Notes under the pieces: generated by a model
The model's database searches: none
What the model was told of the DNA's origin: nothing
What the model saw: only the letters and a program-made list of their open reading frames with translations
Position numbers and translations under genes: made by a program
Source: Arctopsyche grandis
Taxonomy: Eukaryota > Arthropoda > Insecta > Trichoptera > Hydropsychidae
Length of the DNA stretch: 64,000 nt
Assembly: GCF_051622035.1 (NCBI RefSeq)
Contig: NC_135360.1
Coordinates: forward strand, 3,841,501-3,905,500
Reading direction: 5' to 3'
Part shown: piece by piece, positions 485 to 53,184 of the stretch
How the letters are laid out: every line of letters begins with the position of its first letter
Numbering within the stretch: the first letter of the stretch is position 1

Positions 485-930
485 TTTTTATTCATTTATT
501 TATTTATTTTAAAGTTCAGACCATTTTGGCATTACAGGAATTCCTAATGCGCCACAATGGTCAAAAAATATAACACAAAAAAAAAACAAAATAGCAATTA
601 AACATAAATTAATACATAACGAAAATAATATACTAATCAATTAATACATAAAAAAATACATCCATTAATAAACATAAAAAAACAATAGCATTTAAAAATA
701 ACAAATAACGTAAAAATATCAAATATAAAATATAACATAAGGAATGTCTTACACCTACAGCCAATAAATAAGAACCAACTGCAAATACAAAACATCCCTG
801 TGAGGCCCAAATGGAAGAGAGTAAATCAAAATTCCACTCATAAATCAAAATCAATCATGAAAACAATGATGAGCGCAGACTACCAGATAAATGGGTTAGA
901 GTAATATCCGACAATTTACGCTCAATAGAA
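485..930 (-). mobile_element. 3' end of a non-LTR retrotransposon (LINE), minus strand
   Basis: Read on the minus strand, this begins in the last codons and 3' UTR of a LINE and ends in an ATAAATAAATAA-type tail (485-512 on the + strand). Positions 800-930 match the reverse complement of the LINE fragment at 8000-8110. Positions 521-560 form the 3' hairpin shared by several elements in this window. The 5' part is missing, as expected for a 5'-truncated insertion. Confidence 0.75.
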
Positions 931-4794: not shown

Positions 4795-5670
4795 ATGTCC
4801 TCTTTTTTTTAGTTTTTAAATTCAATTATCTCCTAAGCCGCTAACTGAATCGGACTGAAAGTTTTTTACATGTAATAGAAATAATAATCTTTATAGCCTT
4901 ATATTTTTAAATATTTTTATCTGTACCTTTTTGAACGATTGAACGATTTTCTGTACATAGTACTTTTACTCCAGAAAATCGAGGTTTTTTTATGTTTTTC
5001 TCAGAAACGTTTTAGTTTTTTGAACTGAAATTTCATATCTAGAAGTTTAAGCTTAATATAAAGTTTTGTATAAAATTTGGTTACCATCCGTGAACCGGAA
5101 GTGGCAGTTTACTCTTGTTCGATTTTTCTTCCAATATTTTTTTCGACCCCTTCAACATATGTGCTCTTCACGAAAAAAATCAAGTATAATTATTGTATCA
5201 ATGTAATGAAAATAAAAAAAAAATCACTAAATTTAATAAACCGGAAGTTGAATTTTTTCCTCTTAGAAAGGTCACAAATTTTATGGCCACTATTATGTCC
5301 ACAACCCTGAACGTATCAAGCTGAAAATTTATATTTGTATTATTTATGTATTAACTTAGAGCTGATAAGGTTTTGGTCAGAATTCGTAAAGCGGAAGTAG
5401 TTTTTTTTTTAAAACAATATTTCATTATTTTATTTTGACCTTTTAAATTATTTTAATTTTCTTGATATTTAATGTGTATAATACTGATAGTGATTTTAAG
5501 TAATAAAAAAAAATTGAACAAAATCTGACAACCGGAAGTAGAACTTTTTGTCTCGTGCAAGTTTCCATACATTTGCGTTCAATTTGTATCGAAAATGCTG
5601 CCGGTATGTGTGAATGTTTCTGTACGGTTCAATATCGAATTTTGTTTTGCGACCTTCTTATATTCCTCAA
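4795..5670. repeat. Dispersed AT-rich repeat, long copy
   Basis: About 870 bp aligned by eye with 50575-51390, with many small indels. Landmarks are 'gatgtcctcttttttt' at the start, 'aatcggactgaaa', 'acatgtaatagaaat', 'gcagtttactcttgttcgat', 'aaaccggaagt' and 'gacaaccggaagtagaac'. A third, partial copy opens the window. The motif 'accggaagt' recurs inside each copy, so the element may itself have arisen from an internal repeat. No open reading frame is kept between the copies. Confidence 0.8.
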
Positions 5671-6608
5671 ATGCATAGATAAAGTATTAATTTTTTAAAA
5701 TATTTTTTTAAATAATGTGCGAAAATAAAAATTAATTTTTATTTTCAAAAAAAACATGTATTATAAAAAAAAAAATATGTATTTTCTTTTCGATTTTTGT
5801 TTTTATTGTATAATGTAAGAAAAATAAGGTAAAAAAATAGTAATATATGTTTTTCAAGTTAATATGTAAATTTATCAGTTTTTGAATTTTGAGGATTCAA
5901 ACAACGTCAGGAATTAATATATTTTTTTGGACATTGATAACTATGTATGTACATATCATATGTAGGTTCAAAAAGATATAAAAAAACATATAAAGAAAAC
6001 GTCGAATTGGTGCTGAAGTTTAATGTCGAAAGATTTAAAAACAAATCTAAAAAACTTTTCTTCTTTTTATTAGAATTACAAACTTTTCAAGCGAATAATC
6101 TGAAGTAGAGTTTCAGATTTCGAAAAAATAAATTAAATAAATTAATGACTTGCTACGGCACTGAATAGGTATGATGAATTTCATACACTATTGTTTTTAA
6201 ACAGTTTTTTTTAACTGAACTGAAAGTATGTACATACATAGTACTTTTACTAGCAGTATGATCCTTATCAATATCATGTAAATAAAAAAAATGCTGTTGC
6301 GATGATAAATGTTGACGTTTTTATCAGTACATGTACATACATATTCCATTTTCAGATTTTAATCGCGCTACATTATAGTAACTGGAATTAAACTCTTATC
6401 TGTTGCTTAAAATGGTCATACCATCAAAACCAACCTTTCATAATCTTTCAATACCTTTTCAAATGGTATTGTAAATCAGGTGAAAAAAAAAGCACATTAA
6501 GAATAGAATTTCCAGGGTTATTATTATTATAATAAAAGTAATTTGGATGTTTGATAAAAAGTACTCATTTACAAATGATGATTTAATTTTTTTATAGATT
6601 GATTCAAA
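5671..6608 (+). other. Upstream region of UGT gene A, no gene seen
   Basis: AT-rich DNA between a dispersed repeat and the first exon of UGT A. The promoter should lie here, but no convincing TATA or initiator element can be singled out in sequence this rich in A and T. Confidence 0.4.
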
Positions 6609-8761
6609 ATGGCATCGAAAGTATTCTTCGGAATACTTTTGCTGGTTTGCATATCTTCTAGCTACGTCGATGGCTCCAAAATCCTCATGCTGTGTCCAGC
6701 ACCTTCGAGGAGTCATCACATATTGTGCAAAGGTGTCACCGATACGCTAGTCGACAACGGACATGATGTAAATATACGTAATTAAGTATAAACAAATATA
6801 CGTATGTATGTACATGATTTTTGTATAAATATTTATGACGACTTTATGATTATTTAGGTTACACTTATCAGCGCTTTTGCAACAAATACTAAAAAGTATA
6901 CAGATATTAGCATTCCTGCGCTGATTGAATCACAAGGTAAATAAAAGTAATTCAAAATCTTACTCTATACACAAATGTTATAACTTTACATCAGATATTG
7001 ACAAATATCATAACACAATTACATATGTATACTTACACACAGGCAGTGGTGTCAACCCGTTGTTAAAAATCAAAATTTTCCGGAAACCCGTTATTTAATC
7101 TAAAAATTCATATAATTTTTGTCAAAAATTGTACTAAACTTGAAAATTTAATGAACTTTCATGTAATAGTGCTTTGGATGAAAAAAAATATATGTATATA
7201 TATATTTTATAGACACCACTGTGATAAAGGGGCGCGGCTCGTGACATTAAAAACAGGTAGTACATTTGTACTTAATATATTTTCAATAACATTTTATACA
7301 AGGAAGATGACTTTCTTTAACAAATTATCGACTTCGTTCGTTGTGTTTCTGAAAATGTTTAATAAAAAAAAATTATGATAAAATTGTCATATTGCGATTG
7401 ACAATTTTTTGAGTCTTCATCAACGAGTGTGCCGTAAGTTGAACCCCTTTTTTTTCAACTACAACTGCTGTTTACACTCTAACGCAGTGCTACTCGCAAC
7501 TACCAGGGTAGCAGGTAAACTGGAGCTGGCGACCACGGGATCACAGCAGATAAGCGACTGCCCCTAACTGAATTACGAATTGGTTCTGCTCATCGTGTGG
7601 TGAGCCGGATAAACAGACACTTGTTGTCTTTTGACGAAACACCAACAATATACAAAATTTATTTTATTTTTTGATTATGTGTCTAAATGTGTTTGGGGCA
7701 GTGCCCCGATTGCCCTTAAAACTAGCCGCCACTGATATATTAAGCTTAAAATATATATAACAAAGGATAAAACCACAACCAAACACACTTTCAATTGTTT
7801 TATATAAACATATTACATATATAGTTGGGACTTTATGTCCCTAATAATTATGTGCCTGGTAGACATCATCATTTAATGGTTGTACCTGCTGCTCGCACAG
7901 TTCTTTTTCGAATGGCTCCTATTCCAAGAGCTATTCGACTTCTCAATGAAATCGTTGCTGCTGTCCCTGAATGTGATATTTTCCACCTTGGGGAGCGTAG
8001 ATTGTCGGATATTATCTTAACATATTTATCTGGTAACCTGCGCTCATCATTACTTTCTTAATTTGAATGTGATGAATGAGTGGAATCTTAATCTACTCTC
8101 TTCCATTTGGGCCTCGCTGTGATTTTATTTTTTATTCATATTTTGTTTTATTTTATTTTATTTTTTCTTTCTCCTTTGTACATTTTTATATACTATTTTA
8201 ATTTTGCTCAGTGTAAACAAAGAATGGGATTTATGGATTTTATTTTTAATTTTTACACTTTTGTTATATTTTTTTTCTCTCTGAATGATGTATTATTTTC
8301 CTTTTGTTACTTTTTTTTATTATTTTATTTTACCATGTTTTCTGCATTTTTCTTTTATTTACAGTTTACTTGTTTTTATATCATGTTTTTATATCTTTTT
8401 CAAATGTAGGCCATTGTGGCGCATTAGGTTCTTCCTGTAATGCCACAATGGTCCAAAACTATTAAATAGATAAATAAATAAATATACAAACCATAACTTA
8501 ATCATAGATTAATATTTAAACAGAGAAGAACGGTCCTGGATTCCACACTGTTAACATGTCTCAAATAGAAATGATACAATTGATCAACCGATGGCAGCCG
8601 ATGATCATTGATATATTTTACAACAGTCCAGAAGTGAAGAATTTGTTGAATGACAAATCCCAAAAGTTCGACCTCGTCATATTCGAATATTTCATGAACG
8701 AAGTATTGATCGGGTAATAATCAACATAAAATTTAACTCATAACTGGTAAACACGTATTGA

Positions 8762-8845
<84 letters not shown>

Positions 8846-11800
8846 ATGTACATAACATATGAATTTTTCAGATTTGGCGTTCATTACAAATGCCCAGTCA
8901 TAGCTTTATCATCTGTAAGTTTAATGTCTTGGCTTGCTACAATGACTGGAAATCCGCTGACCATAGCAACAGTTCCCAACATATTTACAACTTACACCAC
9001 CAATATGAGTCTGATGGAGAGAGTTTACAATACTTTAATAGCCATCGTTCAAGAGGTTATGGGAAAGTGAGTTCACATTTTAATTTTAAAAAATTGTGTT
9101 GTTCCTATAAATAAATAAACCATCATGTATTATAATAAACCAGATTAGTTTTGGCACCTTTGCAAAAGGAAAAGTACGAAATGTATATGCCCGAGGAGTC
9201 AAAGATGGTGCCATACAAAGACTTGAAAAAGCAAATCTCCATGGTTGTTGTCAATAGTCATCCTTCGGTAGGAATTGCTCGTCCTCTGCTGCCAAACACA
9301 ATTGAAATTGGTGGATATCATATTGCAGAACCTGCACCATTACCCGAAGTATGTAACATATGAAGTACTCGTATCTTAAATTTTACTAGATTCCATCGTT
9401 TTATCTTGTGTAACTTCGTCAAATTGCAGGATCTGAAAAAGGTAATCGAGTCTGCAAAGCATGGAGTTATCTATTTTAGCATGGGTAGCAATTTAAAGAG
9501 CAGTGAAATGGATATCAACATGAGAAAGAGTATACTTAAAGCGTTGTCGACTTTCAAAGAAACTGTTTTGTGGAAGTTCGAAGAAGACTTGCCGGATAGA
9601 CCTAAGAATGTGATTATTAGAAAGTGGATGCCTCAATCAAGTATTTTAGGTAAGTAGTTTAAATCCGTTCATTGCTTATATGTATTCGTTATAAGTTTGT
9701 ATACAATATTGATCAACAAGCGGGCTTTTTACAAGGCTCTTCTTACTTTCACTTCGCCTTTTTTTCGGGTTGTAGTTCAATTTTTCAGTGTTAGGGCGAA
9801 AACACACAGCGGTGAACGGCACATCGTGCGCATGGCTTCTCGCTGTTGGTGGTCTCCTACATATCTTCAAATATGGTATACACCGTTATCGATCACTGTC
9901 AAAGCAAGGATATATATATGTACAAGCATACAATTTTAGCCAAAATGGTCCAGAGGGTCATTTTGGGGCGGGGTATGCTGGGTTTTCAATGAATCTGTGC
10001 ATGGCACGGCTCATTTTTTTCACATGTTTAAAAGTATCTAAAAAAAAAACCACGTGCCACATTCACCACTGTGTGTTTTTGCACTTATCTTATTGGCCTA
10101 TTTTTCTTTAGATGCAGTTGACAGGGGCTTTCAATATTATAAAATATAATATATTTTTTAATAAAGTAAATCACAATAAAATTTAATAAATAAACAAGTG
10201 TACACTTACATTTAACGACATCGGTCCGTCCGTCCGTAATACACATAATTTCCAGTTTTGAACTATTCGGCTCCTTTGAGAGTATTATTTTTAAATAAAA
10301 TGAATATCCCTGGTGGCAGCTAAAAATGTCTTAATTAGAGAAAAAAGTATTTGGTTAACAGTAATTGCATAATAAAACATGAACGGGCATTGCAGGTACT
10401 AATAAGTAGAGGTAGGATAGTCACAGTGCTATCAATTGTTCGGCAAACCTTTAACAATGCATTTACAACCTTTGAACAATACACGGCCCCCTCAGGCTTC
10501 GGTGACTACTAATAAGTATTCATTACTAAAAAGCGGACCAACTTTGCGCCGTTCTTTGTTCATTGTTCGCCGTGCAATGTTTATTTTTATGATGAACCTT
10601 TTTTTTATGCTCTCTAGCTTCGTAGTTTTCCCTGTTTCCTGGAAAAAGTACGCTTCCGGTCCTATCTCTATTCATTACAGTTATTTCTTTTCAAAAAATG
10701 CGAGAACAATATCAGTTTCTTGAATGGTATTCGTCCTTTATTAGTTTAAAAAAAAGGTTCGAACTACACCCGAAAAAAGCCCGCGTGTCAACCAATTTTG
10801 TACAGTGAGTTCCAAGAAACAGGCCAAGCGGACAGCCACACGTGCTAGAAAGCAAGAGTACATTTCCTTACCCATTTTTCGATGAACCATCCCCAAATAA
10901 TTATTGTCCTTATGCAGTAGCTAAAAGTAGCCTTATGCAGAAACACCAAAAGAGAAGCTTAGTTCACACGTAGTTTATGGATTGCGTCTCCGTCTAAATG
11001 AATCAGTTAACCTTCTTACCTTTAGGTACATACACTTATTTCTCAGGAATTCGAATAAAAGCCAAGTATGTCTCATATTTGAAGCTATATATAGCTGCAC
11101 CAGATGGATTTCGCGGTAGCTGTATAAATACAGAAAGCTGTATATATATACAGAAATTGCAACGAGGCGTGTAGCCGCTCGAGGACCGCCGTATAACGAA
11201 TTAATGCCATATGTCAAATTAGCGTTTTTCAATTTGATCAATTTGGTGTCACCCAGTGGAGACCGCACTCCCCGCACAGGCATAGCGACGCTATTACATT
11301 TCCTTGACCATTTTTCGATGAACCGTCCCCAAATAATTATTGTCCTGATGATATATTTTCAGCTCATCCGAACGTCAAACTCTTCATCTCACACGGTGGA
11401 CTGTTGAGTTGTTTAGAAGCGACATACTTCGGCGTACCACTACTGGCCATTCCAATTTTTGGGGATCAATATCACAATGCAAAGACAATGTATGAAAAAG
11501 AGCAAGGCATCATGTTGACATTCGACTCCATAACCGAAGCTTCTCTGACGTCATCCATCAAAGAGACCATCACCAATCCAAAGTATATCACAGTTTCCAC
11601 ATAGAAACAATTAAAAATATAAAATAGATCGATACATCGAAACGAATATTATTTCAGATATACTCAAAATGCGAAAAAGTACAAGGAAATATTCCACGAC
11701 AGGCCGATGAAACCGCGCGATTTGCTGGCTTATTACGTCAACCATGTCATACGCACCAATGGTGCCAAGTATTTATCTCCCCCGTCGCTGCCTCGCTGTT

Positions 11801-14137: not shown

Positions 14138-14890
14138 TCAAAGGCGAGATTGAAACCTTAACTTCATTTCTTCCAATATAGTTGAGTTGCAAATATCACC
14201 TCTTAATAATTTGAAGAAATGATACACAAGAAGCATATTCCTCCGACAAGATAGATAACTATACCCAACAGATCCTTGTACAAAAGCACTGGGATACAGT
14301 TGCAGGTAGTATCCAAACTTTCTCATATATAGATAGCGGAGGAACTTCCTTTGAACTATTCCAATTTTTAGAGAGTGTGTTATTTCACTGGCACTCAATA
14401 TAATGGCACCAGATTCCAAGATGCTTCGGAACAATGTGTTATAAAGAATACGCAAAAATCTTAAGTTATTTAAATTATGAACATTGCGTATAACAAAACC
14501 CAGCATATTTGAAGCTTTATTGCACATATTGAAAATATGGATACCAAACTTCCATCTGCTCTTAAATGTAATGCCAAGGTCGTTTATGGATAATGTTCTA
14601 CACAGTGTAATTACACCAAGATCATTCTGATATAATATGGGATTAGAAGAACGAGAAAAATACATAATATGGCATTTACTAACACTAAAAGGCAAATAGT
14701 TATTAGTCGCCCAGCTCCATGAAGAGTTCAAATTACTCTGAAGGATCTCACAGTCAGAATTATTACCAATTTCCAATATTACTTTGAGGTCATCAACATA
14801 TAATAAGAAATTTGAATCTGAAATTACCGAGCCGATATCATTTATAAAGATTAAAAATAGCAGAGGTCCCAGGTTAGAGCCTTGAGGTAC
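14138..14890 (-). pseudogene. LINE reverse transcriptase fragment, minus strand
   Basis: Starting near 14890 and reading leftwards the frame gives 'PQGSNLGPLLFLIFINDI' and 'FLLYVDDLKVI'. These are the reverse transcriptase motifs PQGS..GPLLF and [YF]-x-D-D. Further on come 'SWATNNYLPFSVSKC' and 'RKFLRYLYMRKFGYY', the thumb and connection region typical of Jockey/CR1-like elements. The frame ends around 14138 without the endonuclease domain, so it is truncated at both ends. Confidence 0.85.
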
Positions 14891-15300: not shown

Positions 15301-16144
15301 CATATGTAATTGCCTAATGGTCCGTACGCACCAAACCAACGACGATTTTGGGCCAACTTTTAAAACCAGTAGCGTACAAAATATCGAAATAAAAATTAAA
15401 TAAAAAAATTGAAATTAAATATCAAAATTAAGCTAACGAGCGAGATTGAGCTAAAATTAGATCATCGTTGATGTTTTGAATTACAACAATGTTTTGAATT
15501 ACGACGATATTTTTTTTATTTTTTATTTATTTATTCAACATATTAGCCACAGTGACATTACAGAGATCTCCAACGCGTCGCTGTAGCCGGTCATTCAGTA
15601 ATAATAACATGATAACAGTAATAATAACTTATAATAATAACAATATTAACACAACATCATTAAAATCATAAAATCATAAAAAAAAGAAAAAACATAGATA
15701 AAGTAATAACAATTACAAAGACCAAAAAAATTTCGTTTGATAAACCGACAACGTACCGGGTTGGGACCATCGCTCGGTCACCCATACTAACACATGATAT
15801 ATTCTCAGTAACTGCGCATTACGGGGAAGTAAAAATAATAATTCTTTGATTTTTTTTCGATCTTAGTGCGTATCTTCGTAAGTCAAAACATCTTCGACAA
15901 ACAAAAGTCGAGGATTACCTGTATGTGATTGTTGATGATCTAATTTTAGGTCAATCTCGAAAATTTATTTAAATTGTGCATATTCTGTTTTAACTTTCAA
16001 TATTTATTTTTAATTTTAATATAATGATTATAATTTTATTTTGATACTTGAATTTAATTTTAATATAATAATAATAGTTTTAATTTTGATATTTAATTTC
16101 AATTTTTAAATTTAATTTTTAATTCGATATTTTGGAAATTTTTT

Positions 16145-16293
16145 TGTCTTCAATTGTTTCTCTCGTCGAAATAAATCAATTAATTAAATCATTTCAGAGG
16201 TAAATTTTATCGGATAATGTCTTCAATTGTTTCTCTCGTCGAAATAAATCAAATAATTAAATCCATCTCAGAGGTAAAATTTATCGGATAATG
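16145..16293. repeat. 73-bp tandem duplication
   Basis: The unit starting 'tgtcttcaattgtttctctc' occurs at 16145 and again at 16218 with a few substitutions, each time running to 'atcggataatg'. Confidence 0.9.
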
Positions 16294-16466
16294 TGTGATT
16301 ATTAATTTTATTTCGACGAAAGAAAAAAAAACCCTTTGACAAATCACCGACATTTTTTTTGTTAAATATTTCATCCACGGCGAAACACATTGGTGTATCG
16401 TGACGACTTATAAGAAACAATAACAAGGTTTTTTTCGCTCGTAATTATAATATTTCTCTGGTTGTA

Positions 16467-17735
16467 ATGCATAATATAAGCATTTTCTATCAAAATGTAC
16501 GAGGCCTTAAATCTAAACTGGATGAATTAGGTTCTAACTCGGCTATTCAATGTGCTGACATCCTGGTACTAACGGAAACCTGGCTTGACGACTCTGTGCA
16601 TGATTCTTTTTAATTTACATTAATGACATCTCAAAAATAATTAAGTATTCAGACTATCTTTTATTCGCCGATGACCTTAAGCTTTTTAAGACAGTTAAGT
16701 CTCATAGTGACGCAGCCCTTCTCCAATTGGACTTACATAGATGCGCTGTCAAGTTGGTCTGTCGATAATAAATTATTTTTTAGCATTCAAAAATGCTGTG
16801 TTCTCAATGTGACAAGATCTTCAAATCGCTTGATTTATCCATATCGCCTAAGTGGTGTTGAATTAAAGTTTGTAGATGAATATTGTGATTTGGGGGTCTT
16901 GTTCTCGAATAATTTTCAATTTAAACGACACATAGACAATATTTGTTTGCGTGCAACAAAAATGCTGGGATTCTTACTAAGAGTTAGCAAACCTTTCCAG
17001 AGTACGTTGGTGCTTAAAATTCTTTATGAATCTTTAGTACGTAGTATTCTAGAATTTTCTTCTATTATATGGAATCCTACCCATATAACTCATTCATTGA
17101 AGATTGAGAGAATCCAAAAACGGTTTCTCAGATATCTTTATTTGAAACAGTGTGGTTATTATCCTTGGCTATATCCTAGTGCATTCCTATTAGGGGCGTT
17201 AGGTTTCAACTCATTGGAGTCTCGTCGGAATATGTTACTGGGAAGACACTTTTTTAAGCTGTTGAATGGGATAATACACAATCGTCAGGTTCTAAAGGAA
17301 TTTAGGTTTAATGCACCTTGTAAATTCAGGGACTTGAGAAATCGTGATTTGTTTGTTCCTCCTGTGGCTCGCACAAATATGTTGTCAACGGCTCCTATAT
17401 CTAGAGCGATATATCTGCTTAACAGGATTTCTGGTGAAATTGACCTCTTCAATATAAAATATACTAATCTGGTTGAGTGGTTGTTGAGGAATGCCAGTGG
17501 TTGATTTTGCCTATTATAAATATTAATGATTGTTATTACTTTATCTATGTTTTTTCTTTTTTTTATGATTTTATGATTTTAATGATGTTGTGTTAATATT
17601 GTTATTATTATAAGTTATTATTACTGTTATCATGTTATTATTACTGAATGACCGGCTACAGCGACGCGTTGGAGATCTCTGTAATGTCACTGTGGCTAAT
17701 ATGTTGAATAAATAAATAAAAAATAAAAAAAATAT
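16467..17735 (+). pseudogene. Internally deleted LINE (endonuclease start joined to reverse transcriptase end)
   Basis: ATG at 16467 opens 'MHNISIFYQNVRGLKSKLDE' and 'VLTETWLDDSVHDSF', the start of the apurinic-like endonuclease domain, then stops. Sequence then resumes at about 16620 inside the reverse transcriptase, with 'DYLLFADDLKLF' (F-A-D-D motif). A frameshift near 16730 moves to the frame of 16671-17504, containing 'LSSWSVDNKLFFSIQKC', 'IERIQKRFLRYLYLKQCGYY' and 'ESRRNMLLGRHFFKLLN'. The C-terminal stop is at 17502-17504. Then come the 3' UTR, hairpin (17655-17696) and tail. The N and C ends flank a large internal deletion, so it is a non-autonomous copy. Confidence 0.85.
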
Positions 17736-18004
17736 CGTCGTAATTCAAAACATTGTTGTAATTCAAAACATCAACGATGATCTAATTTTAGCTCAATCTC
17801 GCTCGTTAGCTTAATTTTGATATTTAATTTCAATTTTTTTATTTAATTTTTATTTCGATATTTTGTACGCTACTGGTTTTAAAAGTTGGCCCAAAATCGT
17901 CGTTGGTTTGGTGCGTACGGACCATAACAGCATTTTTAATTTGGGCAGTATTAGCAATTAACTGTGAGATTTTGGTTTTTAGTCATTTTTTAGTATTTTT
18001 ATAG

Positions 18005-18200
18005 TTTTGGAACAATGTGGCATTACTGGAAGAACCTAATGCGCCACAATGGCCTACATTTGATATAGAAGAAAAAAAAACCAAAATACATAAAATAAAA
18101 AGAAAAAAGCAAAAGCAGAAAAACATGAAAATAATAAATAATACAATAATACAATGAACAAAGGTGTAAAAATCAAAAATAAAATGTTGTACTTATGTTG
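18005..18200 (-). mobile_element. LINE 3' end, minus strand
   Basis: Reading on the minus strand, this holds the LINE 3' UTR, then a decayed hairpin at 18013-18052 ('tgtggcatta' against 'taatgcgccaca'; the outer pairs are lost) and an adjacent T-rich stretch. It is related to 8400-8460 and 485-560. Confidence 0.6.
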
Positions 18201-20975: not shown

Positions 20976-21115
20976 TACGTGTATTTCATGGTACACAATC
21001 CCAAAAATCACCCCCTGGTGTGTTTTCGGTGATATTTTATCCTTGTATTTATCCTTGCTTGACAGTGATCGATATCGGTGAATCCCATATTTGCAGAAAT
21101 GTAGGAGAAACTTGG

Positions 21116-22172
21116 TAATGGTTCAGGATCTGTGATATGGTATCCACCAATTTCGATGGTATTCGGCAGCAAAGTCCGAGCTAATCCAACAGAAGGATGA
21201 CTGTTGACTATAATCAAGGAAATGTGCTTCTTTAACTCTTCGTACGGTACAATCTTAGCTTCTTCTGGCATGTATTGAATATACAATTTTTTTGCTATCG
21301 GTTCCATGACGAGTCTGATTTGTCGATAATATTACTTTATTAGTTTTTCTATTATTAAACACACATTTAAGACTACATACAAATATTTACTGACGTTCCC
21401 ATTGCTTCATTTCCTATCGTTATTAATGTATTAATGACCCTTTGCTTCCAATCCATATTCGTTGTGAATGATGTGAATATATTGGGTACTGTTTTCACCG
21501 ACAGTGGATTGCTGGTCATCGTAGCCAACCATGACATTATGCTTACTGACGATAGAACCATCACTGGACATTTATATCGAATGCCGAGTCTGGAAAGAAT
21601 GACATTTTTAATTTGTCTAGTGGTTTAACATCTTGCCAATTTGTTATTACTTGATGTATATAATAACAGAAAAACCAGTTTATATGTAGGCATGTATTTT
21701 GTGTTTAATTTTCATATATATAAATTAAAATTCTCAATATTGGAACCTGCACCCATTCGAATTCCAGTCTTTCATGGATTGAACCATTTACATATTATAT
21801 CGATGCGGTGCAAACGATCGACAAGCGCCAGACAGACTGAACCACAGATTAACGACACGTGTACCTTATGCGTGCGCACTGCTCGCACTTACACTAAGCG
21901 AAATCTACCCGAAGTCCCGACATACCTACCCTGTATACGTTCTGTGCTTCTGTTACTTTAGTTCCGAATTTTGCCTTATTAAACTCGCCAGAAAGATCCA
22001 ACTCAATTTTAATAATTACCATTTTAATAATTGCATCTGTGCACATCGAAAGGTTACTCGTCATCTGATGTGCAGTCTATCATTTGTGAAGTCGATAATT
22101 TCGTTTAACGCAGCCATCCAGTTAATCTGTGGTTCAGTCTGTCTGGCGCTTGTCGATCGTTTGCACCAAACC
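21116..22172 (-). pseudogene. UGT C', inverted partial duplicate of gene C (exons 4-5), broken
   Basis: Reading the minus strand from 22172 to 21116 reproduces gene C from 36088 to 37147: a 372-bp MITE, intron 3 sequence, exon 4 (about 21599-21405), intron 4, and exon 5 (about 21320-21116), which stops within its last codons. About 2-3% of exon positions differ, including a GGCC to GGAC change turning 'LARPLL' into 'LARTLL'. Exons 1-3 and 6-8 are missing, so no full enzyme can be made. It lies tail to tail with UGT A'. Confidence 0.9.
21801..22172. mobile_element. 372-bp inverted-repeat MITE, duplicated with UGT C'
   Basis: Same element as 36088-36459 in intron 3 of UGT C. Both ends carry GGTGCAAACGATCGACAAGC or its complement. 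One side keeps the flank CATATTATAT (21791-21800). The other side runs into unrelated DNA, because the duplication ends there. Confidence 0.85.
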
Positions 22173-23540
22173 CGGATATGAATACACGTGAGAGCTAACA
22201 AATAAATGCATTCTACTGTGAACCCCACGGCGGGGATGTCTATACGTCTATACATCTAGGTTCCGTCATTCCGGGAGATGTATGTAGGTAGTATGGCATT
22301 TTCAAAGCATTCATCAGTAATAGCTGAAGTGGTGGGAAAAGAGATTAGAACCTAGTTTATAATAATAAGATCGTACAAATTAACTTTGAACTGTGAACGC
22401 CCTTTCTTGGCTGGAAGCCACGGGGATATGCCGTGCCGTTCATCTCTGTGTGATTTCACCCTAACTGAGGCTGGTATTGAAGTTGGAGCTGCAGTTTGGT
22501 GAACCTGCATTATGGCTCATATGGAGCTAGACAATCATTGGCAAATCCACGGTGGTGGCGCGAGCACTCTACAGGACTACGTAATATTATACATAATAAT
22601 TAAAATTCACATTTGGCGTTTAAAAACGCAATTCAAACGTGCCTTTCTGGTTCAAAAAGTAACATTATTGAATCGGGGGTGTGAGCAGACCACTCTGTCC
22701 TTCAGGAATAAAATTTTATCATGTGCATCATCAATGCAGCTAATTTATCATCCTTCGCCTGAGTTGAGATTAATATATTTTATAATCTCAACTCAGGCGA
22801 TATCACACAGATAAGATATTAATTTGTAAAAATTTTGGTGAAAAATCAAAATCTAGTTTTGTTATCAAATTAGGAATATTTCGGACATCATTTTTAAATT
22901 GATTAGTATTTGAAATTCAATAATTATGCAATTAACATTTATTTTATATGATGACTATTGTAAGATTGTAAGATTTCTTATTTTACTTTAATTTATTATT
23001 GAAAATCAATTTTCCAATATAGGTACGTGTATTTTTCCGCCACTGTAGACAATACGGGTGATGCAGGTAATGAATCCAAAATTATGGGTGAAGCTATCGA
23101 CGGGATTGTAATTGGTACATGGTAATTGGATTATTGGTCACATTGCGGTGGTCACAAAGACAATTTTTGCCATGAAAAACGCGAATGTGGGATATTTGGC
23201 ACTCGAGTTAGAATTACCACAAATAATTACTTCGATATCATGTAAGGCTCCCTTGTCAATAATACAGGTCTGTGTAATTGTTTCAATAGTAGATAACATT
23301 TCATTAAACCTAGACAGTTGACATGATTTTTGCTCCCGCGATAGCAAATTTGTTTTAGAGATAAGAATTTTATTTAAGGATAAGGCCCCCTTCGGAAATT
23401 CGGAAATTCTTCAAATATATTGGTGCCATTTTAATATGCGGTCTACCTTCACATATCTACTTTAGTATGCGATCTACCTTCGCGTTTTTACTTTAATATG
23501 TGGTCTCACTGTCTCAGTTCTCTCGTGGGACAGTGAGACT
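22173..23540. other. Non-genic stretch with one perfect hairpin
   Basis: No exon of a known family was recognised. The stem-loop at 22756-22799 is listed separately. Around 22990-23340 the sequence is less AT-rich and may be an old element, but I cannot name it. Confidence 0.4.
22756..22799. repeat. Perfect 17-bp stem-loop
   Basis: CGCCTGAGTTGAGATTA and its exact complement TAATCTCAACTCAGGCG are separated by about 10 bp. Confidence 0.85.
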
Positions 23541-27448: not shown

Positions 27449-30400
27449 ATGAAGCATTCGAGAATATTACTCGGAATACTATTTGTGTGTATTTCACTGG
27501 CTAATGGCTCCAAAATTCTCAAAGTATGCTTGGCGCCTTCAAAAAGTCATCATATCCTGTGCCAAGGTGTGGTTGACACATTAGCAGACAGTGGACATGA
27601 AGTTAGTACCTTAATTAAGTTTAAATAAAATGCATTAAATGACCAAAAACAGTCGAATTTGGTTTTTGCGAGCCGAAATTTTCTTATTTATAGCTGTTAC
27701 TAGAAATGTCAGTAATGCGTTAAATTTATCTACATTTTTTTTAGTTAATATCAACGTCAATATATGTACTTACAAAAACGATAAAGTATCAAATACTAAA
27801 TATAATATTTATTTTAAATTAAAAAAATTTTTGCAATTTCATTTTTCTTTTTTACACGTCTATCCAGATAATGAGTTCGTAATAAGCAATATTTTGATTG
27901 TACATACATATATGAATAATACGTATAAATTTTAGGTCACCTTCATCAATACTTTTGCTTCTAACGGTAAAAAATATAAGGAAATTACGATCAGCGAACT
28001 GTCGAACTCGTTACGTAATACACTTTTATTATTCTAGAATGTTGAGTTTCTCAAATTAGTAGTCAAAAGATGAACTAATTATATGTGTATTTATTTACAG
28101 AAAAACACCATGCCGGATTTAAGACAAACCATATGTCAAAAGTAGGACTAGTAAATGTATTACCTCTATGGCAGCAGGAAGTAACTAGCACATTTTTTAA
28201 TCATCCTAAAATCGTCGACTTCTTCGCTGATAAAAATCAAAAGTTTGATCTCGTCATCATCGAATACTTTATGAATGAAATGTTCATTGGGTGAGATATG
28301 TTTTAAATTAATATTAACATAATATGTAATTAACAGTCAAGTTTTGTATAATTTTTCAATTTCACAATGAAATCTGGACAAACAATATTAATATAAATTA
28401 CCTATAAGTATTATCCTCTTCGGGCATATGTATATATGTACATATATAATATTGAAAAAAAGTGCCGATTCAGATAAATAATGAAAAAGTTCAATTACCA
28501 AATTCAACTCTTTATGAACTTTTCCTTTATTGCCTAGGCAACCGACTACAAGAGACTATAAATAATTCAATAAATAATGAAAGAGTTCAATTACAAAATT
28601 CAACTCTCTATGAACTTTTCCTTTATTGCCTAGGCAACCAACTACAAGAGATTATAAAAAAAAGTATATAAACCTTTCTGTTTATGCCCAAAAAGAAAAG
28701 AGAAGGGTGGAGATATATGTATCTAAATCAACAGGCAATTTTTCTATGATTTCCAATTTTAAATTGAAATCTGGACAAACAATATTAATGTAAATTATCT
28801 ATGTATATATATTGTCCTCTTCGGGCATATGTAATATTGAAAAAAAGTGCCGACTCATCGAAAGAGTTAAATTACCAAATTAAAGTCTCATGAACTCTTC
28901 CTTTATTTCCTAGGCAACCAACGACACGAATAAATATAATATAAAACCAATTTGTTTTCAATTAAAAGCGAATGAATTTTTACTATACATTTTTATTATC
29001 TTTATCTTAATCTCCTAAATGTATTTTTATCTGGTTTTTTTTTCTCTTCTCTCTGTTATATTTTCGACAATTGGGGCGCATTAGGGATTCCTGTAATGCC
29101 ACAATTATATTAATGTATAATTATACAAATATATTAATATAAATACATTTAAGATATTTCAATATTCACGTAGTTAGAAATAGAGGTATGCATGATCATA
29201 AAACTAGCAATATGAATAGGAGTGGCGTAGCGTGAATTCCTGTTGCCCCCCCCCCCCCCGCAAAATATTTTAAGGCGCCCTCCCCCCATATATTCATATT
29301 ATTTACTTACAGCAAAATAACTTTCCATATTAATAATTTTACGTATCGGTATATGTACCTATGTATATATCGAAGTGCATTAATAGTTTAATCTGCACAA
29401 CCAACATGCAGTGCACAATCTGTTTATTTTATGTTTTTCCTTAAAAACTTCCCACCTGTTAATGATGACAGCGAAAAATGTATAAATTTATAAATTTAAT
29501 TGGTTTTAATCATATAATTTTGTTTTATTGTTTACACATTGAAAAAGTATATACAATAATAAGAAAGAATTCTCAGCAAATAGGTTGAAAAGTGGCACTG
29601 ACGTTCAAACGATGGAAAAAGACGGCAGTCTTCTAGCCCTATTGGCATAGATCAATTACACAATGAGGATGAATTCAAAATATGTATGATAATGTATGTA
29701 AATACATATAGTACTAATAGGTTGAAAAATAAGTGAAGTTCTCAAAAAAGTTACGGAACAAATTAAAAAATCAGTGAAAAAGGCGCGCTTAGTGACGACC
29801 CCCAGGTATCGCCCCCCCCCCCCCCCCCCCCCCCGCGTTGCGGGGTCTGCGGGCGCGGTAGCAACGCCACTGTTATAGGTAGAGTTAAATTAATTAGGGT
29901 TAAGAAAGCAAAAACACATGGGTTCTTAAATTTATAACACCCTTCCTGAGAACATTAGAAGTGCTAAAACATTAGTGACTTCTTGAAGGGAGATAATGGT
30001 TACCTTTGTGGAAGATGTAATAAAATTAAGATCGATAGTTAAAATACATATATATGTACTATGTGGGTTAATTCTAGTTATTAATTTAATTTTGTTATTT
30101 TTTTAATGTATGTTATTATAAGTAATTTGCTATTAAATAAGTAAATAAATAAATATGTCGGGAGCTCGTCTTTTCAGGCTCGGAATTCGATATAAATGTC
30201 CCGTGGTAATTCTGTCATCTGTGAGCTTAATGCCGTGGTTGGCCACGATGACCAGCAATCCGCTGTCCATAGAAACAGTTCCTAATATGTTCACGCCGTT
30301 TACAACCAATATGAGTTTAAAAGAAAGAGTCATCAATACGCTTGCAACAATAGGCGCAGAAATCTTGGGAAGGTGAGTCCTGGCTTTCCATTTTTGACTT

Positions 30401-32616
30401 ATCTTTATTTTGAACTTTCTGGGACTACGTAGTAGATCCATTATTTAATTTGATTAATATTAAAAAGTATCACATTTGTGTTCGATTACAATTTAGAAAA
30501 GTCGTTTTTCGTGTTAAATCAGATTTTTCTTGGATCCAACATCAAGGAAATTATATGCTGAATATATGCCCGAAGAAGCCAATTTGGTGCCATTTGAAGA
30601 TTTAAGGAAGCACATTTCCATAGTATTTGTAAACAGTCATCCTTCTATTGGATTAGCTCGTCCTCTGCTACCGAATACGATTGAAATTGGCGGATATCAC
30701 ATTGCAGATCCTAAACCATTACCCGAAGTAATAAAATGATTTATTGCATAGTTTCTTTTATTTAAATTTCACATTTGCGTCCATGTAGTTCAAATCTTGA
30801 AAAAAGAAAGTTATAAGCTTTAAAAAAAGGTTCTTGTCTCTTAATATGTACATTCCAATGCTACAGGATCTTCAAGAAGTGATAGACTCGGCCAAGCATG
30901 GTGTCATCTTTTTCAGCATGGGTAGTAATTTGAAAAGTAAAGATATGGACGTCGAATTGAGACAAAATATTCTCAAAGTGTTATCAGGCTTCAAAGAAAC
31001 CGTGCTATGGAAATTTGAAGAAGATCTACCGGACAAGCCAAAAAACGTCATCATCCGTAAATGGATGCCACAGTCGAGCATTTTGGGTAAACCAAATCCA
31101 TATTATTGATACACTAAATGATCCAACTTTATATGGTAACACTTACTAGTATATTTTCAGCACATAAAAATGTCAAGTTGTTCATTTCTCACGGTGGACT
31201 TTTGAGTGTAACCGAGGCGACTTACTTTGGTGTACCATTGCTCGCTATACCAGTATTTGGAGATCAGTTCCACAATGCCATGACTGTGTCAGAGAAAGGA
31301 CAGGGTGTCATGCTGTCTCTCAGCAATATAACTGAAGTTTCGTTGAAGTGGTCTATCAATGAGGTTATAAGCAATCCAAAGTAAGTTAAATATTGCATCA
31401 TGTATTCTTTCAGATACACCTAAATCTGACATATTATGTTTTCATCTTCCTTTTTGATAATCTGTTTAAGGAATCTCAATACTCTCTCATTTTCTTATCG
31501 AACGTATTGATTTGAACTCGTCTGTTAATTCTAAGCTTTCTGGATCGCCCCACATATCTTTTACTTACTAGAATAACCCGACTAATTTAATCGAGATCTT
31601 TCAATAGCGGTTAATGGATCAATTCCTATATCTGTGTTACATTTATTTTATAGCAGCATAGGTCGATCGTTAAGCTTCTGCTTAGCGTCGAGAGGCGCCG
31701 GGTTCGATCCTTGGGCCCGGCCTCGAATGAAAATGAATTTTATTATGAGTATGCTGTTGGTTAGACCAACGTTTGAGTATGCTGTCGGTTAGACCTGGAT
31801 TTGTGACTTCAGGTTGATCGTTTCCTATCAGAGTTTGCCAATTTTCTCTGATTTCACTGTTGAAACGGTTCCCGGAAAAAAATTGGCTAAAAAATCCCTC
31901 CTATACGATATGTCACCTATAATTTGTGTATAAATTGATGGATGTCTCATTGATTTGCGAGTTTTACAGTGTCTCGTAATTCAGTGATTTATATAAAAAA
32001 AAATGCTGAATTGTAATTTGTAAATTTGTAATTGGCCAGGAAGGCGCATTGGGGTTTACCTGTAAGGCCTTCCTGGTATATATGTAAAATAAAATAAAAT
32101 AAAATAAAATAAATAAAATACCACGTACCATCTCCTAGACTTGTAACTAGGATCAATGTAATAATCTCTGCTGGAATTGAAACCTCCATATCCTATTGAC
32201 ACACATTTTTGTTTTGATAACTAAGTATTAACAGGACAAATGTTGACACTATTGTTTTAAAGACTCCATTATTGAAGGTTTTTGATACAAACGTATTATT
32301 TTATTTTAGATACAACGAAATCGCTAAGATGAATCAGAAAATATTTCATGATAGACCAATGAAGCCACGGGAACTGCTAGCGTTTTATGTCGATCATATT
32401 ATAAGAACAAAAGGTGCCAACTATTTGTCACCTCCGTCACTGCCACGTGCCTCGCAGTTGCTGTTAGACGTTGCTGCAGTTATCCTTATTCCATTAGTGT
32501 CGATAGCATTCTTGTTCGCATTTATTTGCCGAAAATTATGTTGCAGAAAATCAGCAAAGGAAAACAAAAAATCATCAAGCAGAAAAGAAATCAGCAAAGG
32601 AAAGAAAAAAAATTAA
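27449..32616 (+). CDS. UDP-glycosyltransferase, gene B of the cluster (8 exons, 522 aa)
   Basis: Exons: 27449-27601, 27936-28014, 28101-28290, 30178-30372, 30523-30727, 30867-31086, 31161-31380, 32310-32616. Lengths of exons 2-7 equal those of genes A and C, and all phases join. The start is the ATG opening 'MKHSRILLGILFVCISLANG', a signal peptide. 'APSKSHHILC' holds the likely catalytic His; 'FDLVIIEYFMNE' has Glu where the family usually has a catalytic Asp. The donor-site signature runs from 'WMPQSSIL' through 'FISHGGLLSVTEATYFGVPL' to 'FGDQFHNA'. A C-terminal membrane helix is followed by a Lys/Ser-rich tail ending KKKN, a dilysine ER signal, longer than in A and C. AATAAA lies at 32634. 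Introns 3 and 7 hold LINE, hAT-like and SINE insertions. Confidence 0.93.
28365..28935. repeat. Nested tandem duplications in UGT B intron 3
   Basis: A segment with 'aaatctggacaaacaatatt', 'cctcttcgggcatatg' and 'aaaaaaagtgccgac' occurs near 28370-28470 and again near 28765-28860. Inside, a roughly 106-bp unit containing 'cttttcctttattgcctagg' is doubled (about 28478 and 28584), with a third, diverged copy near 28866-28930. The open frame across the unit is a by-product of the repeat. Confidence 0.8.
29040..29115 (+). mobile_element. LINE 3' tail, short fragment
   Basis: Hairpin at 29069-29106 ('aattggggcgcattagg' against 'cctgtaatgccacaatt'), preceded by a T-rich stretch. Only the last part of the element is present. 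Confidence 0.6.
29221..29871. mobile_element. hAT-like non-autonomous element with long C runs
   Basis: Left end AGTGGCGTAGCG, right end GCAACGCCACT. The flanks share ATAGG (TGAATAGG and GTTATAGG), an imperfect 8-bp duplication. Two runs of C (29247-29260 and about 29813-29834) lie near the ends. It lies in intron 3 of UGT B. Confidence 0.5.
31640..32118 (+). mobile_element. tRNA-derived SINE with a LINE-type 3' hairpin
   Basis: The head (about 31655-31720) contains GGGTTCGATCC, a good RNA polymerase III B box, after a tRNA-like stretch. The body has 'gttggttagacc' and 'gttgaaacggttcc'. The end is the hairpin CCAGGAAGGC...GCCTTCCTGG (32036-32076) and an AAAATAAAATAAAATA tail. A truncated reversed copy lies at 43636-43856. 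It sits in intron 7 of UGT B. Confidence 0.85.
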
Positions 32617-35375: not shown

Positions 35376-38300
35376 ATGAAGCATAAAAGTGTTTTATTTG
35401 GAATTGTGTTTGGATGCATTTTTTTGAGCAATGTTGACTTTACCGATGGCTCAAAAATCCTCAAGGTGTGTTTGGCACCTTCCAGGAGTCATCACATACT
35501 GTGCCAAGGTGTGGTTGACACGCTAGTCAAAAGTGGTCATGAAGTTAGTATTTTGATAAGCTAAAATGTAACTAGACTAAAAGTTGTATAATTTAAATGA
35601 TCACTATGTGTAAAATTTAGGTAACTTTCTTGAATGCTTTTGCTACGAATAGTAAAAAATATAAAGAAATTACAATCAGCGAGCTATCTCACGCATTCGG
35701 TAATGAATTTTAATTCTTTAATATGTTATTAGTAACAAATATAAAATAAATGATTAATTAATTTTAATTGTTATATGTACATATATAGAAAAAAACGATG
35801 TTGGATTCGGAATAGCCAATGTATCACAAGTACAAATGATAAAAATGATAACTGAATGGCAACCGGAGGTAACAAAAATATTTTACAGTAATCCGGAAAT
35901 AGTTGAATTCTTCAATGACAAAAATCAAAAGTTCGATCTGGTCATATTTGAGTACTTCATGAATGAAATGTTTATAGGGTGAGTGTTTACAATCTTTTAA
36001 ATAGTAGTTCAATCATATTATACGAGTTATAGAAATGATCCACCCTACATTTTCGATACCTTGAAGGATTTTAAGATATATAATATGGGTTTGGTGCAAA
36101 CGATCGACAAGCGCCAGACAGACTGAACCACAGATTAACTGGATGGCTGCTTTAAACGCAATTCTCGACTTCACGAATGATAGATTGCAGCTCAGATGAC
36201 GAGTAACCTTTCGATGTGCACAGATGCAATTATTAAAATGGTAATTATTAAAATTGAGTTGGATCTTTCTGGCGAGTTTAATAAGTCAAAATTCGGAACT
36301 AAAGTATCAGAAGCACAGAAGGTATACAGGGTAGGTATGTCGGGACTTCGGGTAGATTTCGCTTAGTGTAAGTGCAAGCAGTGCGCACGCATAAGGTACA
36401 CGTGTCGTTAATCTGTGCTTCAGTCTGTCTGGCGCTTGTCGATCGTTTGCACCGCATCGATATAATATGTAAATGGTTCAATCCATGAAAGACTGGAATT
36501 CAATTGGGTGCAGGTTCCAATATTGAGAATTTTAATTTATGTATATGAAAATTAAACACAAAATACATGCCTACATATAAACTGGTTTTTCTGTTATTAT
36601 GTACATCAAGTAATAACAAATTGGCAAGATTTTAAACCACTAGACAAATTAAAAATGTCATTCTTTCCAGACTCGGCATTCGATATAAATGTCCAGTGAT
36701 GGTTCTATCGTCAGTAAGCATAATGTCATGGTTGGCTACGATGACCAGCAATCCACTGTCGGTGGAAACAGTACCCAATATATTCACATCATACACAACG
36801 AATATGGATTTGAAGCAAAGGGTCATTAATACATTAATAACGATAGGAAATGAAGCAATGGGAACGTCAGTAAATATTTGGATGTAGTCTTAAATGTGTG
36901 TTTAATAATAGAAAAACTAATAAAGTAATATTATCGACAAATCAGACTCGTCATGGAACCGATAGCAAAAAAATTGTATATTCAATACATGCCAGAAGAA
37001 GCTAAGATTGTACCGTACGAAGAGTTAAAGAAGCACATTTCCTTGATTATAGTCAACAGTCATCCTTCTGTTGGATTAGCTCGGCCTTTGCTGCCGAATA
37101 CCATCGAAATTGGTGGATACCATATCGCAGATCCTGAACCATTACCAAAAGTAAGACATTAATATAAACATATGTATGTTATTATTATATTATAGTATGA
37201 AATTTAACATTAATAATCAAGAAGTTTGATCAGGCATTTACAGTTTACAACAAAAATAGATTCATAGAGTTGCAAATATCAAAAAATATATAATGTGGCC
37301 ATGATTATTAAAGCATAATGTCGTTAATTATCATAAAATGATCTCTCAAGCTTCCACATATGATTATTTTATTTAAATATGTACTTATAGGACAGGAGGT
37401 TATGTTGTGACTGTAACCCGGCCTATGGAAACTCGTTGTAGATAACAGAGGAAATTTATTTTCTTCAGTATATAAGTTTATTGTCAGTACAGAAAATTCA
37501 CGGGGAAGTGGGCTAGTTGCCTGCTTCAGGGGAAAGCCTGACTGGACTGCCGTCTGTGGCTGCTGTACTGGTTTATATATGGGCACGGTGATGTCATCTT
37601 GTTCTCGAGGATTCCTCCGGGTTCAAGGGTTTCCTTTGTGTGGCTTCACAAGGTTGCTTGATGGGTATTCATCTGGAGTGAGTCGAATCGCCTTTATCGG
37701 TGGTCTGGATATGGGTGAGGTGATGTCATCTCGTTCTCGAAGATTCTTCCAGGCTCAAGGGTATCCGTGTGGTCGCGTGCCTTGTGTTTTATGGGGTAAT
37801 AGGATTTATGCTATTTCGGTTGTTCCCTTGAACTCAAGGTTTTGTTTATCCGGAGCGAATAGATGATTGCTTTGGCTTTGCTGAAAGCTCGTACAAGCTG
37901 TATTGTATTCTTATATACTTTTTAATTCTATCAAACAGGATCTTCAAAAAGTGATAGACTCGGCCGAGCACGGCGTCATCTTCTTCAGCATGGGTAGTAA
38001 TTTGAAAAGCAAAGATATGAGCGCCGAATTAAGACAGGGCATACTGAAAGTTTTTTCGACTTTCAAAGAAACTATATTGTGGAAATTTGAAGAAGATCTA
38101 CCAAATAAACCAAAAAACGTCATCATCCGTAAGTGGATGCCGCAATCTAGCATTTTAGGTAAATCAATTCCAAATTATTGATACAATAAATGATCCATCT
38201 TTATATGGTTACATACTAGTATATTTTTAGCACACAAAAACGTCAAGTTATTTATTTCTCATGGTGGACTCTTGAGTTTAACGGAGGCGACTTACTTTGG

Positions 38301-42790: not shown

Positions 42791-52147
<9,357 letters not shown>

Positions 52148-52459: not shown

Positions 52460-53184
52460 TGTAGGAATCTCGTCGTCGTCATCGTCATCGAAACCTTCGA
52501 GAATATTCCGCAACAACAAAATACATCGAGCGGAACAGCGCCAAGCATTCCAGAAAATACTACGCCTCGACAAAAGTGCATTCCTCTTGTACGCATCAAC
52601 AACTAAATGCTCGCACGCATCAATAACCACTTCCATCAAGCGTTCCAGAAAATTCTACGCCTCGACAAAAGTGCATTCCTTTCTTACGCATCAACAAACC
52701 ACCACCATCGGTCAGGCGATTCCAGAAACACTATAAAAGGAGGTACAACCCAAACAACGCCAGTCGACCCACAGCAGCAAGCGTCGACACACAGCAACAG
52801 ACCAGTCGACCCACAGCAGCAAGCGTCGACACACAACAGCAGACCAGTCAACATACAGCTCCTGACCAGCCACCACTACACTACGCGGACTTGGAAGATC
52901 AACCAGCCGGACGAGCCAGCAACACACTGCCGTATCCAGAGACCTTCCGAACATAGCCGAACAACGAGCCAGCAACACACTGCCGCATCCAGAGACCTTC
53001 TGAACATAGCTGAATGCCGAGCCAGCGACACTCTACCATATCCAGAGACCGCTGAACGACATACTTTTGCCCACAAATACTATACCTTTGTACAACCATA
53101 GGCAAACAATAAAACTTTATAAAACTAGCACAACAGTGTTTCGTTAGGCCGGGATACGGTCAACACATCGCTACCCCGCCTACA
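52460..53184 (+). mobile_element. Solo LTR with internal tandem repeats
   Basis: TGTAGG at 52460 and CCTACA at 53179-53184; TTTC on both sides (52456-52459 and 53185-53188). A TATA box 'ctataaaagg' is at 52732. A unit with 'tacgcctcgacaaaagtgca' is doubled upstream of it (about 52560 and 52660), and 'cagtcgacccacagcagcaa' is doubled downstream. AATAAA is at about 53108, and 'gccgggatacggtcaacaca' is near the end. No gag or pol. Confidence 0.85.

Follow-up and report, generated by a model that had tools for sequence, protein, structure and literature searches.

Here we show that two LINE families and one SINE-like family in a single 64-kb window (the whole stretch of DNA analysed) share a hairpin module at the 3' end, just ahead of an A/T-rich repeat tail. 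The module is about 52 nt long and consists of an outer stem of about 10-12 pairs, conserved segments flanking the apex, and a variable terminal loop of 4-5 nt. We consider it likely that these hairpins are the 3' recognition structure of stringent-type LINEs and that the SINE-like element carries the same module. Such hairpins are the handle by which the copying enzyme of an element grips its template. The use of a hairpin as a handle for reverse transcriptase (RT) is thus a known phenomenon, and what differs here is the position of the conserved letters. A sequence-only reading of this DNA had proposed a 3'-terminal module common to the LINEs and the SINE-like element, and the positions of the hairpins, their conserved segments and a held-out model test all bear this out. 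With these three families within 64 kb, the window offers a compact natural series in which fixed and variable parts of the hairpin can be distinguished.

The hairpin set in the window comprises seven distinct sequences in three groups, namely four copies from one LINE family (LINE-a), one from the other (LINE-b) and two from the SINE-like element; the second location of the LINE-b hairpin is a duplicate:

8411..8451, forward strand: LINE-a 3' hairpin, outer stem paired throughout
519..562, reverse strand: LINE-a 3' hairpin of a second subtype, one broken pair (found by simple scan)
18006..18058, reverse strand: LINE-a 3' hairpin, three broken pairs (found with a covariance model)
29069..29106, forward strand: LINE-a 3' hairpin with two pairs broken and a further one compensated, CG to AU (found by simple scan)
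17655..17696, forward strand: LINE-b 3' hairpin, outer stem with one G-U and one mismatch
15546..15587, reverse strand: copy of the 17655 hairpin in the opposite arm of an inverted repeat
32036..32076, forward strand: SINE-like element, 3' hairpin with outer stem CCAGGAAGGC/GCCTTCCTGG
43443..43495, reverse strand: hairpin of a decayed second SINE-like copy (found with a covariance model and BLAST)

The hairpins at 18006-18058(-) and 43443-43495(-) were found with a covariance model built from five hairpins (E 1.6e-10 and 5e-4, respectively; these E-values are rough). The coordinates and letters reported previously for 8411-8451, 32036-32076, 17655-17696 and the reversed 15546-15587 are correct. 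The last two had been described as a third version of the stem, with one G-U and one mismatch; the pairing is as described, but the two places hold one sequence, to be counted once. Segments 15317-15713 and 17529-17925 form a 397-nt inverted repeat with 100% identity that contains both LINE-b hairpins, so that these are not two witnesses. The outer ends of this inverted repeat read TGGTCCGTACGC.../...GCGTACGGACCA, with TAA flanking each side, and the entire region 15317-17925 looks like a terminal-inverted-repeat DNA element in which each arm carries a LINE 3' end with the hairpin and a deleted LINE ORF lies between the arms.

The distance from hairpin to tail, previously given as 15-60 nt, had to be revised. 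Intact repeat tails begin closer, 8-18 nt past the hairpin (8 nt at 32036, 11 at 17655, 13 at 519 and 18 at 8411); at 18006 and 29069 the tail has degenerated, and 43443 has a short (TGTA)n. The LINE stem-loops are located at the 3' end ahead of the repeat tail: LINE-b has its stop at 17504 and its hairpin at 17655-17696, and the LINE-a hairpins at 8411 and 519 are placed likewise. The coding parts of the LINEs are the following:

7861..8061, forward strand: C-terminal end of the LINE-a ORF, sharing 41% identity with LINE-b across 58 residues (E 6e-6)
16467..17504, forward strand: LINE-b ORF pieces, internally deleted and frame-broken, stop at 17504
16467-16610, forward strand: endonuclease-like start of LINE-b, recognized by eye, no Pfam match
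14138..14890, reverse strand: RT fragment of a related LINE (RVT_1, E 3.8e-10)

Downstream of its endonuclease-like start, LINE-b encodes an RT-like part and a C-terminal part up to 17504. The LINE-a and LINE-b pieces themselves yielded no Pfam match, and their link to reverse transcriptases runs through the RVT_1 fragment at 14138-14890, to which LINE-b is 46% identical over 185 residues, and then along the chain of identity from LINE-b to LINE-a. No hairpin was found 3' of the RT fragment 14138-14890(-). These LINE ORFs may resemble those of the Jockey/CR1 group.

The SINE-like element is represented by two copies, for which the following segments were delineated:

31640..32130, forward strand: SINE-like element, approximate limits, with a B-box-like GGTTCGATCC near 31701, a body, the hairpin and a (TAAAA)n tail
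43675-43758, reverse strand: body stretch of the second SINE-like copy (BLAST)

The second copy matches the first at 86% over 63 nt in the hairpin and at 74% over 89 nt in the body stretch. This central stretch (31799-31887 and 43675-43758(-)), which includes TGAAACGGTTCC, exceeds most of the body in conservation and is possibly a conserved SINE domain. No convincing A box accompanies the B-box-like motif in the first copy, as judged against the box consensus, and ARAGORN detected no tRNA; the case for a tRNA origin of the head is weak. No target-site duplication could be established for the copy with the hairpin at 32036, whose flanks (31541-31700 and 32086-32160) share only an 8-nt word and its two 7-nt sub-words. 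An exon of the UDPGT family adjoins this copy (Pfam UDPGT, E 2e-8), and two more copies of the UDPGT stretch are present in the window, 63-72% like the copy at 11650 that serves as reference. Compared at their 3' ends, the SINE-like element and the LINEs have the structure and the conserved segments in common and differ in the outer stem and the tail; no LINE bearing the SINE's own stem was found within the window.

The window contains several other repeats. Segments 21112-22173 and 36087-37148 constitute an inverted pair of 1,062 nt that is 98% complementary, which suggests a recent inverted duplication or conversion, and the pair overlaps stretches that recur several times across the window. 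Blocks 42-233, 4803-5676 and 50585-51393 are alike at 63-89% identity and belong to a repeat of about 870 nt. At 52911-53069, where the window is richest in G+C, a 53-nt unit is repeated three times head to tail, the second repeat being 91% and the third 62% like the first.

Four of the first five hairpins folded with RNAfold (8411, 519, 29069 and 32036) are predicted to form an outer stem, an internal loop, a short inner stem and a terminal loop; in LINE-a and the SINE, a symmetric internal loop and a four-pair inner stem are predicted to form from the conserved segments. For LINE-b, the same outer stem is predicted with a different inner pairing (-19.0 kcal/mol, against -16.6 kcal/mol for the common structure). 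The z-scores were -5.4 (8411), -4.8 (519), -1.4 (29069), -2.2 (LINE-b) and -3.8 (32036); 19 of 200 shuffles folded as well as 29069 and 9 of 200 as well as LINE-b, and none of 200 did so for 8411, 519 or 32036. The decayed copies at 18006 and 43443 have folding energies of -13.9 and -12.7 kcal/mol, respectively (no z-score computed). An alternative, slipped fold, in which GCAUUA pairs with UAAUGC and two bases are bulged, fits the five-row alignment about equally well (94.1% of cells paired, against 93.8%). It is less stable than the common fold in LINE-a (-21.1 vs -26.4 kcal/mol) and in the SINE (-18.7 vs -26.5 kcal/mol), whereas in LINE-b it reaches -18.3 kcal/mol, against -16.6 for the common fold and -19.0 for the lowest-energy fold, which is partly slipped. 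Because LINE-b shows a two-sided change at columns 15/39, the unslipped outer stem is favoured; the hairpin may switch between the two predicted folds.

The segments GC.UU.G and CUGUAA that flank the apex show no variation among the five aligned rows, and some of the flanking columns vary once both decayed copies are added (seven rows). The letters of the terminal loop vary among families and between the LINE-a subtypes. The proposal that loop and apex are read by sequence is therefore half right and needs correcting: the conserved letters flank the terminal loop, which itself varies.

Between families, the outer stem changes mostly in step on both arms. As noted previously, four central positions of the outer stem differ between 8411 and 32036 on both strands with pairing kept: all 4 changes in the 5' arm between LINE-a and the SINE are compensated (probability under a random model, 3.3e-4), and one further change, in the 3' arm at the innermost of the 12 pairs counted, is uncompensated. 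Between LINE-a and LINE-b, 3 of 5 changes are compensated (0.013), and between LINE-b and the SINE, 4 of 6 (0.026); these family-level probabilities are only a guide, as each family enters two of the three comparisons, which makes them dependent on one another. Across the five-row alignment, 93.8% of 80 cells are paired and 8 of 16 pairs show a both-sided change; shuffles had a mean of 2.6 such pairs, with none of 500 reaching 8, and slid versions gave at most 2. With seven rows, 90.2% of 112 cells are paired and both-sided change affects 7 of 16 pairs (equalled by 1 of 500 shuffles). The seven-row covariation score is 0.464, compared with a shuffled mean of 0.224 (none of 500 as high) and a maximum of 0.170 for slid versions; further pair types are not clearly in excess of shuffles (42 of 500). 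All these comparisons are based on three families from one 64-kb window.

Individual copies present a different picture. With broken pairs assigned by reading the alignments, the LINE-a copies other than 8411 contain six (one in 519, three in 18006 and two in 29069) against a single compensated pair (in 29069), which is the expectation for dead copies, and the second SINE copy (43443) contains three more. Uncompensated stem changes, which the sequence-only reading had named as evidence that would count against it, are thus present in decayed copies, while between families the stems are still mostly paired. Single copies are the wrong unit for a compensation test for this very reason.

The relationship between the families was assessed with a held-out model trained on the four LINE-a copies only and run with and without base pairs (E-values again rough). 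On the SINE, the model scored 37.7 bits (E 5e-7) with pairs and 14.3 bits (E 0.002) without; on LINE-b, 23.0 bits (E 0.003) with pairs and 6.2 bits (E 0.72) without. The second SINE copy was not detected by this model in either mode at E up to 10. For comparison, the apex pattern GCATTAGGN{2,8}CCTGTAATGC was searched in two large prokaryote/viral collections, which yielded 36 exact loci (11 viral and 25 prokaryote). Two of these outscore LINE-b (26.9 and 25.6 bits), as do two LINE-a hairpins read in antisense (28.7 and 25.5 bits), and the SINE score exceeds every control. Outer positions are paired at 10 of 10 in the SINE and 9 of 10 in LINE-b; among the 36 loci, counted in the better of two registers, the best reaches 7 of 10 and the next six 6 of 10. 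Hence, the claim that between families the stem is held by pairing more than by sequence is clearly upheld by the held-out test for the SINE and only weakly for LINE-b, the case for which also rests on its 3'-end position in a related LINE and its 9 paired outer positions. A scan of the window against Rfam, which also served as the check for 7SL and 5S likeness of the SINE head, produced no matches at the gathering score; in the viral_contigs collection, a 20-nt stem string had no matches, and two queries for related LINE proteins gave none that was confirmed.

That the SINE and LINE hairpins are unrelated and alike by chance is a very remote prospect. The apex motif by itself does recur, with 36 exact matches in the prokaryote/viral collections, some scoring above LINE-b, but none of these loci attains the 37.7 bits of the SINE or pairs more than 7 of the 10 outer positions, and the second SINE copy also has the hairpin; chance resemblance of the SINE to the LINE-a hairpin in particular is disfavoured by the contrast between 37.7 bits with pairs and 14.3 bits without. 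A mutational process that perfects the stem, one arm templating the other through quasi-palindrome correction or template switching during reverse transcription and with no selection for RT binding, also appears improbable to us. The four changes between LINE-a and the SINE are contiguous (TTGT/ACAA to GGAA/TTCC), as a single copying event would produce; the changes in LINE-b, however, are scattered (columns 8, 10, 11, 13 and 15) and include a wobble and a mismatch, and such correction leaves both the conservation flanking the apex and the location at the 3' end unexplained.

The hairpin could also act on LINE RNA in some other way, in 3'-end formation, stability, export or translation rather than in RT recognition. 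AATAAA strings occur 3' of the LINE hairpins at 8411, 519 and 17655, and position and covariation would suit any role at the RNA level. Yet the same module is found in the SINE-like element, which is presumably transcribed by another polymerase and untranslated, and this points to a step that the elements share, reverse transcription; we therefore regard such another role as rather unlikely. Recognition of the hairpin by reverse transcriptase, the reading that we prefer, is inferred from published work on other LINEs (PMC4176376).

Under RT recognition, the ORF2 protein of the LINE would bind this structure in the template RNA. It would recognize the sequence of the conserved segments, whereas the outer stem would be needed only as a duplex, and target-primed reverse transcription would then begin in the tail. 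Since it has this module as well, the SINE RNA would be a template for machinery of the same kind. A broader version, in which the RT of a whole LINE clade reads the segments flanking the apex and accepts any outer duplex, so that one SINE is moved by several LINE families, is conceivable and, in our estimate, doubtful. If it is true, the LINE families that share one SINE are only about 40-46% identical in protein, and the SINE is a promiscuous parasite, which would explain why its stem has drifted from that of any single partner.

Among the matches listed from the open-licence literature, searched by titles and the beginnings of abstracts, no paper on this hairpin was found; word searches of the main text of PMC8010984 for 'hairpin' and 'stem-loop', and of that of PMC1925062 for 'hairpin' and 'stem', gave no occurrences.

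Comparable structures are known from other LINEs and SINEs, among them site-specific insect LINEs such as SART1 and R2. In monocots, the L1-clade LINEs of maize and sorghum share about 50 nt with ZmSINE2, ZmSINE3 and sorghum SINEs, forming a hairpin in which, as in our window, stem changes are compensatory and some unpaired letters are conserved; there the host is a plant, the LINEs belong to the L1 clade, and the conserved letters lie within the loop and along the stem's 3' flank (PMC3747384). Retrotransposition likewise requires 3' UTR structure in further LINEs, including SART1 and R2 (PMC5135761 and PMC4176376). The stringent-type LINEs of fish, ZfL2-1 and ZfL2-2 of zebrafish and UnaL2 of eel, are L2-clade elements with a stem-loop at the 3' terminus, in the 3' tail; in the ZfL2 elements, stem swaps are tolerated (at about half the rate in ZfL2-1), loop swaps are not, and unpairing of the stem abolishes retrotransposition, so that the stem is exchangeable and the structure required (PMC4176376). 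Stems are not free in every LINE, as changes in the UnaL2 stem strongly lowered retrotransposition, a result reported in that paper. In contrast to ZfL2 and UnaL2, where the loop is specifically read, the terminal loop varies here and the flanking segments are conserved; this placement of the fixed letters departs from the zebrafish case and is directly testable.
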